64,000 nt of DNA, from contig ONIN01000008.1 of the NCBI GenBank assembly GCA_900317905.1, positions 62,001 through 126,000 of the forward strand. The letters are read 5' to 3'. The notes beneath the pieces were generated by a model, which was not told where the DNA came from, searched no databases, and saw only the letters and a program-made list of their open reading frames with translations. A program made the translations under genes and the position numbers. Every line of letters begins with the position of its first letter. Positions within the stretch are counted from its first letter, which is position 1. The DNA is from an uncultured Eubacteriales bacterium (GTDB lineage Bacteria > Bacillota > Clostridia > Oscillospirales > Oscillospiraceae). Shown piece after piece: positions 29,271-34,007 of the stretch.

Positions 29271-30164
29271 TTAGTCCTTTTTGGGTTTCTTGACTCTGTA
29301 GATCATCTTCGGCATGTCGAGGCTGGCCTTGGTGTCCTTCTCAACGGAGGAGGTGATGAAGCTGTTGCCGCCGATGACGGAGTTGGCACCGATGATGGTC
29401 TCGCCGCCGAGGATGGAGGCGTTGGAGTAGATGGTGGCGTTGTCGCCCACGGTGGGGTGGCGCTTGCCCACCACGGCGTGGCCGCCGCGGGGACTCAGAG
29501 CGCCCAGGGTGACGCCCTGGTAGAGCTTCACATGGTTGCCGATGATGGTGGTCTCGCCCACCACGATGCCGGTGCCGTGGTCGATGAAGAAATACTCGCC
29601 GATGGTGGCGCCGGGGTTGATGTCGATGCCGGTCTGGCTGTGGGCAAACTCGGTCATGATTCTGGGGATCATGGGCACGCCGCTCACATAGAGCTGGTGG
29701 GCCATGCGGTAGACGAAGATGGCGTAGAGACCGGGGTAGGAGAAGATGACCTCCTCCTTGCTGCCCGCGGCGGGATCGCCCTCATAGTTGGCGGCCACGT
29801 CCTTCATCAGCAGCTCCTGAATGCGTGGCAGATTGCTGAAAAAGCCGCTGACGGCCTCGTCGGTCTTGTAGGCCAGCTCGGCGGGATCCTTCACCTTGTT
29901 GGAAAAGGCCAGCTCCACCTGCTCCCGAAGATCGGCGAAGATGTCGCCCAGCAGGTATTCCACATAGGTGTTGGCGGTGACCTGAGAGATGGCCGTGCCG
30001 CCGAAGTAGGCGGGGAAGATGATCTTCTGCAGCTTCTCGATGATTTCGATGACGGTGTCCCGGTTGGGCAGCCGCAGCTGGTCGCTGTACATGGGCACTT
30101 CGGCCTTGTCATAATTCTCGGCGATCTGCGCGGCCACGCTGTGCAGCAGGTCTTTCTGGATCAT
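29271..30164 (-). CDS. cysE: Serine O-acetyltransferase (EpsC/CysE type)
   Basis: A 297-residue enzyme making O-acetylserine, the first committed step of cysteine synthesis. The helical N-terminal part (~1-170) is longer than in Bacillus CysE and matches the EpsC form. The left-handed beta-helix (~185-270) shows hexapeptide repeats and the catalytic region FAHSQTGIDINPGATIGEYF, cited by its core TGIDINPGA, with IDHGTGIVVGE downstream. AAGGAG precedes the ATG. Immediately upstream on the same strand are an intrinsic terminator and a Cys-rich leader peptide, forming a candidate cysteine attenuator. No cysK follows; transcription ends at the palindrome at 29227. Confidence 0.92.
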   Translation of the reverse strand: MIQKDLLHSVAAQIAENYDKAEVPMYSDQLRLPNRDTVIEIIEKLQKIIFPAYFGGTAISQVTANTYVEYLLGDIFADLREQVELAFSNKVKDPAELAYKTDEAVSGFFSNLPRIQELLMKDVAANYEGDPAAGSKEEVIFSYPGLYAIFVYRMAHQLYVSGVPMIPRIMTEFAHSQTGIDINPGATIGEYFFIDHGTGIVVGETTIIGNHVKLYQGVTLGALSPRGGHAVVGKRHPTVGDNATIYSNASILGGETIIGANSVIGGNSFITSSVEKDTKASLDMPKMIYRVKKPKKD

Positions 30165-30188
30165 GTTAAAACTCCTTTACAGAAAATG

Positions 30189-30215
30189 AAAAAGCGGGAA
30201 GCACGCACTTCCCGC
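30189..30215 (-). terminator. Attenuator terminator of serine acetyltransferase
   Basis: On the minus strand GCGGGAAG (30215-30208) pairs with CTTCCCGC (30201-30194), followed by TTTTT (30193-30189). It ends 24 bp before the cysE start and just upstream of its Shine-Dalgarno, so it must be bypassed for expression. Confidence 0.88.
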
Positions 30216-30255
30216 CGTATAATTCGGATGAAACTGGAACTCAGAGGCAGAAAGT
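30207..30255 (-). promoter_or_regulatory. Candidate antiterminator overlapping the leader peptide end
   Basis: On the minus strand ACTTTCTGCC (30255-30246), which encodes the last leader codons, pairs over all ten positions with GGCGGGAAGT (30216-30207; eight Watson-Crick, two G-U). The second segment contains the entire 5' arm of the terminator, so the two hairpins exclude each other. A ribosome at the leader stop codon would cover the first segment. Confidence 0.75.
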
Positions 30256-30330
30256 ACATCGTTTTTGCGCGCGACAACAACAGACGCAGACCGCCGCGCC
30301 CGTGACTCTGCCAGCAGCAAAAACCTTCAT
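30241..30330 (-). CDS. Cys-rich leader peptide of serine acetyltransferase (attenuator uORF)
   Basis: Minus strand, ATG at 30330 to TGA at 30241, 29 codons, too short for most gene callers. Cysteine is at positions 15, 17, 18, 19, 25 and 28 (core VCVCCCRAQKRCTFC): six of 29, with three in a row. AAAGGGG lies 8 bp before the ATG. It sits between a promoter and a terminator upstream of a cysteine-biosynthesis gene. By analogy with trp and his leaders and the polycysteine uORFs of mycobacteria, the peptide itself probably has no function; ribosome stalling at UGU/UGC codons 15-19 when Cys-tRNA is scarce would free the antiterminator. A Cys T-box, the usual Firmicutes solution, is not seen here. 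Confidence 0.82.
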   Translation of the reverse strand: MKVFAAGRVTGAAVCVCCCRAQKRCTFCL

Positions 30331-30361
30331 ACCGTGAGCCCCTTTCTTCAGATTCTCCATT

Positions 30362-30390
30362 TATATAACATGATATGCAGAAAATGTCAA
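30362..30390 (-). promoter_or_regulatory. Promoter of the Cys leader-cysE unit
   Basis: On the minus strand TTGACA (30385-30390), 17-bp spacer, TATATA (30362-30367). Initiation is expected near 30355, giving a ~190-nt leader RNA. Confidence 0.85.

Positions 30391-30491: not shown

Positions 30492-34007
<3,516 letters not shown>

Follow-up and report, generated by a model that had tools for sequence, protein, structure and literature searches.

Sequence comparison with related genomes indicates that the serine O-acetyltransferase gene cysE, on the minus strand of the 64,000-nt stretch of Oscillospiraceae DNA that we analysed (hereafter, the window), is very probably preceded by a ribosome-mediated transcription attenuator, which would switch on cysE under a shortage of charged tRNA-Cys. 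This element seems to belong to one attenuator family that uses Cys codons in front of cys genes and mainly Met codons in front of met genes. At the cysteine and methionine genes of these bacteria one would rather anticipate T-boxes, SAM riboswitches or CymR, and at the methionine genes in particular a SAM riboswitch or a T-box.

Read along the minus strand from 30390 to 30183, the region carries a promoter, a ribosome-binding site, a Cys-rich leader, an antiterminator and an intrinsic terminator, followed by cysE. The promoter, already recognised in a preliminary description of this DNA, lies at 30390-30362 and consists of a -35 hexamer, TTGACA (30385..30390; present too in the relatives G007 and G005), and a -10 hexamer, TATATA (30362..30367), with a spacer of 17 nt; the pair was absent from the output of a simple promoter scan. 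The ribosome site reported there is present as well, its sequence and position now being refined to AAAGGGG at 30345-30339, within a segment comprising this site and the start codon (strand 1, 30325..30348) that can pair with strand 2 (see the swap tests below). The leader peptide ORF of 29 codons (MKVFAAGRVTGAAVCVCCCRAQKRCTFCL; 30241..30330, with ATG at 30330 and the stop ending at 30241) contains six Cys codons, at positions 15, 17, 18, 19, 25 and 28, and thus agrees with the earlier claim of six, including three in a row. The likely sensing codons are Cys15 and Cys17-Cys19 (TGC GTC TGT TGT TGT, 30274..30288); codons 20-22 (30265..30273) encode Arg-Ala-Gln, which recurs 3' of the sensing codons in both the Cys and the Met types. 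Strand 2, the putative antiterminator (ACTTTCTGCC, 30246..30255), starts 18 nt past codon 19 and pairs at 10/10 positions, two of them G-U, with strand 3, the 5' arm of the terminator (GGCGGGAAGT, 30207..30216); this pairing, already noticed in the preliminary description, beats shuffles (p=0.006). Strands 3 and 4 (GCTTCCCGCT, 30193..30202) form the 10-pair terminator stem (30216-30207 / 30202-30193), followed by a T-rich tract at 30183..30192. The terminator had been placed 24 bp before cysE; it is indeed there, its arm ending 28 nt from the cysE ATG (30164) and its first T run lying ~24 nt before the gene.

The cysE gene, which is the regulated gene in our proposal, occupies 29271..30164 of the minus strand behind its own ribosome-binding site (TAAAGGAG, 30172..30179). 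The best NCBIfam model for its 297-aa product is serine O-acetyltransferase: the cysE model matched at E=8.4e-47, under that model's curated cut-off, and the EpsC-type model slightly over its cut-off. Since the gene upstream of the promoter (30492-34007), which we take from its sequence to be pyruvate:ferredoxin oxidoreductase, has a terminator of its own at 30461-30430, the leader and cysE are probably a separate transcription unit. The element matched no known Rfam, Pfam or NCBIfam family, and 20 relatives likewise gave no match to Rfam. A T-box was rejected, there being no Rfam T-box at the locus and all six T-box matches of the genome (two above the cut-off) lying on other contigs; a lysine riboswitch (RF00168, 10996-11166, plus strand) is the sole Rfam match in the window at gathering score. 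The source genome (G000) is 80% complete and comprises 38 contigs; in this assembly cysE is present, cysK was not found at E<=1e-60, and there are four other PLP-fold genes.

Of the 10 genomes in the genus set, seven have enough DNA before cysE to be assessed (G006 ends 37 nt before cysE, G008 ends inside it, and G009 has no clear cysE). The leader was found before cysE in six of these seven (G000, G001, G002, G004, G005 and G007), and in the seventh, G003, there is a promoter before cysE and neither leader nor terminator was found. The preliminary description had predicted that relatives would retain the Cys codons together with a covarying terminator and antiterminator, which was the case in the six genomes and also, with greater variation, in another genus; it had also named as counter-evidence a relative with cysE that lacks the Cys codons or the hairpins, and of this G003, which lacks both, is a partial instance. 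The six leaders are 24-30 codons long and have CCCRA in common, TGTTGTTGTCG being invariant across all six and the N-terminal half showing no conservation. Cys25 is present in only two of the six, and the codon for Cys28 falls within the antiterminator TTTCTGC. In G005 (L005), the stop of the ORF precedes the antiterminator and CTTTCTGC is still kept, suggesting that it is the RNA rather than the last Cys codons that is preserved. Consequently, the claim that the Cys codons act as a sensor is narrowed to codons 15-19; Cys25 and Cys28 do not look like part of it.

Upstream DNA was also read in a second genus, g37, where a leader and terminator occur in 18 of 32 genomes, 17 before cysK and one before cysE. 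Two of the 18 loci are weak (G409, with three Cys codons and no CC, and G406, with a poor T run), and in an additional genome, G404, the terminator alone is visible where the contig ends. The g37 leaders vary, most of them showing CC followed by Arg or Cys and next by Ala, and the antiterminator TTTCTGC is read in a different frame from that of Cys28 in the window. In a third genus, g104, shorter CC-bearing leaders precede cysK (L095) and cysE (L100), with antiterminator pairing that was not significant. The pattern TGTTGTTGTCGNGCNC occurred at 16 places in 15 of 400 genomes of the family, six of them being the genus cysE leaders, one a cysK leader (G396) and nine being without such a leader. 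A scan for four Cys codons, CC and a terminator in front of 40 more cysE genes of the family (a few of the regions being short) found none, and no such attenuator was seen in 30 cysK upstream regions of the order, a two-Cys ORF with a terminator (L233) not being counted. Cys-rich short ORFs such as MTNCSHCNKIITKCGCLPCG, before cysE in Blautia (L037, L042), were left out of the counts. At other cysK promoters (L199, L201, L216), inverted repeats such as CCTACTCGGTTGGTAG adjoin the promoter and resemble an Rrf2-type operator. Short terminator-less ORFs whose last residues are Arg-Cys-Cys or the like were observed 33-83 nt before cysK (L198, L205, L216, L227, L234, L241 and others); ORFs of this type precede 9 of 46 attenuator-less cysK genes (3 of the 9 doubtful) vs. 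13 of 920 mononucleotide-shuffled upstream regions. They look like the polycysteine leaders of Actinobacteria.

To compare strand 2 with its partners across loci, the DNA after the last CC was set against the terminator 5' arm in a duplex test with shuffled controls at 25 loci (L186 not included). After exclusion of six near-duplicates, the 19 distinct loci gave a Fisher p=8e-8, with p<0.05 in 10 of the 19. In an alignment of 17 loci (without L183, L184, L192-L195, L197 and two g104 loci), 86.6% of the cells of the 2:3 helix were paired vs. 31-56% when it was slid, and its covariation score was attained by one shuffle in 500; in pairs with changes on both sides, however, the helix (6) was equalled by a slid version (7), and further pair types were not above shuffles. 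For the terminator (3:4, 15 loci), 90.5% of the cells were paired, 8 of 10 pairs had changed on both sides, and the covariation score was attained by 0 of 500 shuffles. Swap tests on 10 g37 loci (without L183, L184, L189, L192-L195 and L197) showed that the locus's own strand 3 is the better partner for strand 2 (p=6e-4), as is its own leader ribosome site (1:2, p=5e-5; control 1:3, p=0.36). The genus Cys loci alone gave a weak signal for 2:3 (p=0.12 with four loci, 0.045 with six) and none of significance for 1:2 (p=0.08 or 0.06). When Cys and Met loci of the genus were pooled (12 loci, without the Met loci L300 and L350), the p values were 0.002 for 1:2, 0.014 for 2:3 and 0.66 for the control; keeping a single locus from each close pair (8 loci) gave 1.5e-4, 0.02 and 0.72, respectively. 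The 1:2 covariation score on the 17-row alignment was not significant (66 of 500 shuffles reach it). When all DNA 5' of CCC was tested for a duplex with strand 2, the window leader gave no significant result (p=0.67) and 13 loci together gave p=4e-7. By these comparisons, 2:3 and 3:4 covary in the Cys type and 1:2 covaries in the family. The preliminary description had missed both the covariation of strand 2 with the leader ribosome site and the wider Cys/Met family.

These data bear on an alternative that we consider unlikely, namely that the Cys-rich ORF controls cysE at the level of translation or through Rho, in the mycobacterial style, and that the hairpin is a mere structure of the 5' UTR. 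It could draw on the terminator-less short ORFs ending in RCC that precede other cysK genes of this order, and on the terminator-less polycysteine leaders reported in Actinobacteria: the available part of that report describes leader ORFs with runs of Cys codons before cysteine genes, as in our element, in Mycobacterium, Propionibacterium and Bifidobacterium, with no conserved terminator (PMC1262725). Here, however, what separates the ORF from the gene is a covarying hairpin with its T run, together with an alternative pairing that covaries as well, and the cysE ribosome site takes no part in the 2:3 or 3:4 pairings. Membership of the mycobacterial class itself, whose ORFs are leaderless, lack a terminator and act by translation attenuation according to the portion of the literature at hand, was rejected because our element has a ribosome site and a terminator, together with an antiterminator.

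From the parts of the cysE element and their conservation, both established by sequence comparison, we infer the following course of events, including translation of the leader, ribosome stalling and the signal that is sensed. A ribosome would translate the leader as RNA polymerase transcribes it. When Cys-tRNA is short, the ribosome would stall at codons 15-19 and strand 2 would stay open, so that it could pair with strand 3, prevent the 3:4 terminator and allow cysE to be transcribed. When Cys-tRNA is plentiful, the ribosome would reach the stop codon and cover strand 2, whereupon 3:4 would form and transcription would end before cysE. With no ribosome, strand 2 may pair with strand 1, closing the leader and tipping the balance towards the terminator, this being the least certain step. 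Such a logic, in which stalling at codons 15-19 decides between antiterminator and terminator, had been put forward in the preliminary description; conservation and covariation argue for it, and a response of the element to cysteine would be its expected outcome.

In trp-type attenuators the outcome is decided during transcription, and therefore the states before strand 4 is made are likely to matter most. In those states, the window leader with a ribosome masked at CCC folded with strand 3 wholly paired to strand 2, and with the ribosome masked at the stop codon strand 3 was almost free (3 nt paired). In equilibrium folds of the full leader, the terminator was still favoured with one stalled ribosome, and 2:3 won when ribosomes were queued back to the start; 2:3 must therefore form first, or ribosomes must queue. 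Among three relatives folded, L182 and L187 gave a clean 2:3 only with queued ribosomes, 2:3 being absent from L187 with one stalled ribosome. Since strand 3 of the ribosome-free window leader pairs with strand 2 before strand 4 exists, and with strand 4 afterwards, a default-off state set by 1:2 was not borne out; the 1:2 hairpin is supported for the family and the pooled genus, and not for the genus Cys type alone or in the naked fold of the window leader. Of the features that define an attenuator, a leader ORF (of predicted translation) with a ribosome site and a Cys run is present here, as is an intrinsic terminator before the gene. A suitably placed antiterminator exclusive with the terminator is indicated for the Cys type by sequence and folding, and was not supported in the Met-type relatives.

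These relatives were identified with covariance models. The first (R1), built on 15 Cys-type loci only, had the cysE element as its sole match above noise in the source genome and matched 27 places in the 400 family genomes, of which nine were of Cys type, four were of Met type and 14 were not accepted. The four Met-type leaders are rich in Met as well as Cys and precede metQ or metN. Among the 14, the best place, L262 (E=1.6e-7), carries within the end of another frame a Cys-rich ORF of 13 codons, and L275 has a longer Met-rich ORF. A second model (R3) was built on the four Met-type leaders and three Cys leaders of g37, the window's genus not being represented in it. At E<=0.001 it had matches in 148 of the 400 genomes of the family, although the weaker ones, most of which are short, may be bare terminators. 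It recovered the window element at E=7e-7 (searching the window) and 2.5e-5 (searching the genome), which the stricter filters of the 400-genome search had missed. We read 70 R3 places: 30 that were listed, a further 39 of lower rank as far as E=5e-7, and the match of the source genome at 8e-5, which was false; the place on contig 19 of G340 and three Cys-type places already known were left out. A met or cys gene was called if its motif lay <=1600 nt downstream on the same strand, examples being checked with NCBIfam. By this measure, 66 of the 70 loci precede metN (36), metQ (19), metY (6) or metA (5), one precedes cysK and three precede none; without five training loci, 62 of 65 precede metN, metQ, metA or metY. 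Within the genus, met-gene elements matching R3 occur in eight of 10 genomes (G001-G005 and G007-G009); G000 has none, and the weak match of G006 was left unread. As the leader of each locus we chose, among ORFs of 15-60 codons, the one with the most Met plus Cys, a choice that biases the averages upward; they came to 8.1 internal Met and 2.9 Cys in ~34 codons; the genus cysE leaders have no internal Met and 4-7 Cys. Thus the codons match the downstream genes, Cys going with cysE or cysK and Met with met genes.

For pairing in the Met type, 24 of the 70 loci were dropped (no motif, no scannable terminator, duplicate or false), as were six that were near-identical. In the remaining 40, 2:3 was unsupported (Fisher p=0.28; swap p=0.15) and 1:2 was supported (p=5e-5). 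In a window-by-window scan, the signal came from pairing of the ribosome site (-18 to +4 relative to the start) with a segment ~4-22 nt after the Ala codon (z ~-9); among the structural features of the family, we regard this pairing of ribosome site and post-sensor segment as the most robust. The Met type may be without a classical antiterminator, and since 2:3 is unsupported there, the Met branch may work mainly through opening and closing of the leader ribosome site. We regard it as reasonably likely that one homologous scaffold, made up of a leader ribosome site able to pair with the post-sensor segment, a motif like Arg/Cys-Ala-Gln and a terminator, serves the sulfur amino acids as a whole and has moved between met and cys genes, its sensing codons being switched between Met and Cys to match, and that the Met branch is a codon-sensing methionine attenuator. 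At three loci (L265, L266, L279), an extra short ORF with Arg-Met-Cys-Pro (e.g., MKKLYRLFATGHRMCPPGTIR) lies between the terminator and metQ, as if there were a second control layer 3' of the terminator.

In 42 of the 70 R3 loci, as in the Cys leaders of the genus, the sensing codons are followed by a motif like Arg/Cys/His-Ala-Gln/His with varying Ala codons (the search required Ala). Such a motif could point to an arrest peptide, whose nascent chain would sense a compound (cysteine, sulfide or an antibiotic) instead of a scarcity of charged tRNA. Considering that the motif sits beyond the expected stall site, that the peptide lacks conservation in its N-terminal half and that the downstream gene goes along with a change of the sensing codons from Cys to Met, as codon sensing predicts, this explanation is less likely still than translational control. 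Chance juxtaposition of a TGT-repeat Cys-rich ORF and an ordinary terminator is scarcely credible: the loose arrangement of Cys-rich short ORF, terminator and gene has three matches in the window, those besides the cysE element having gaps of 161 and 165 nt, but the upstream gene already has its own terminator and conservation with covariation in other species refutes chance.

Codon-sensing attenuation as such is old. The trp and his attenuators of enterobacteria consist of a leader peptide with regulatory codons and mutually exclusive 2:3 and 3:4 hairpins, all of which the cysE element resembles; it differs from them in that the 5' strand covarying with strand 2 is the leader ribosome site. 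In Firmicutes, the same leader-peptide principle, set beside ours by description only, is used for branched-chain amino acids in the ilv-leu attenuator of Staphylococcus aureus (PMC5794164) and for histidine in the his attenuators of Bacillus (PMC2965389), as far as the accessible parts of these papers go. In the portion available of PMC8632094, attenuation at Cys codons with a terminator is proposed for the uORFC-8-2 motif before cysS in Rhodobacterales, which shares with our element a tandem-Cys leader ORF, an intrinsic terminator and a proposal made from comparative sequence. It differs in phylum, in its gene (cysteinyl-tRNA synthetase) and in having two Cys codons inside the first stem, and no Met-type relatives are described in that portion, whereas the window's family has them. 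The fthC motif (uORFC-39-1) of Streptococcus is likewise a Firmicutes leader ORF with a terminator, on which its authors suggest that methionine supply may act; in the section of that paper at our disposal, methionine acts via initiation (fMet-tRNA) and not via runs of Met codons, and the gene is fthC (PMC11109978). Among the matches listed for the open-licence PMC literature, we recognised no Cys- or Met-codon attenuators in Firmicutes.

The cysE element and its relatives would give largely uncultured bacteria of the gut and rumen a switch that controls cysteine and methionine genes by reading codons. If true, the finding adds short genes and predicts regulation in many genomes, as the R3 matches across the family suggest. 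Moreover, if the switch between Met and Cys codons is real, it would constitute a natural experiment in which one RNA scaffold has been re-tuned between amino acids.
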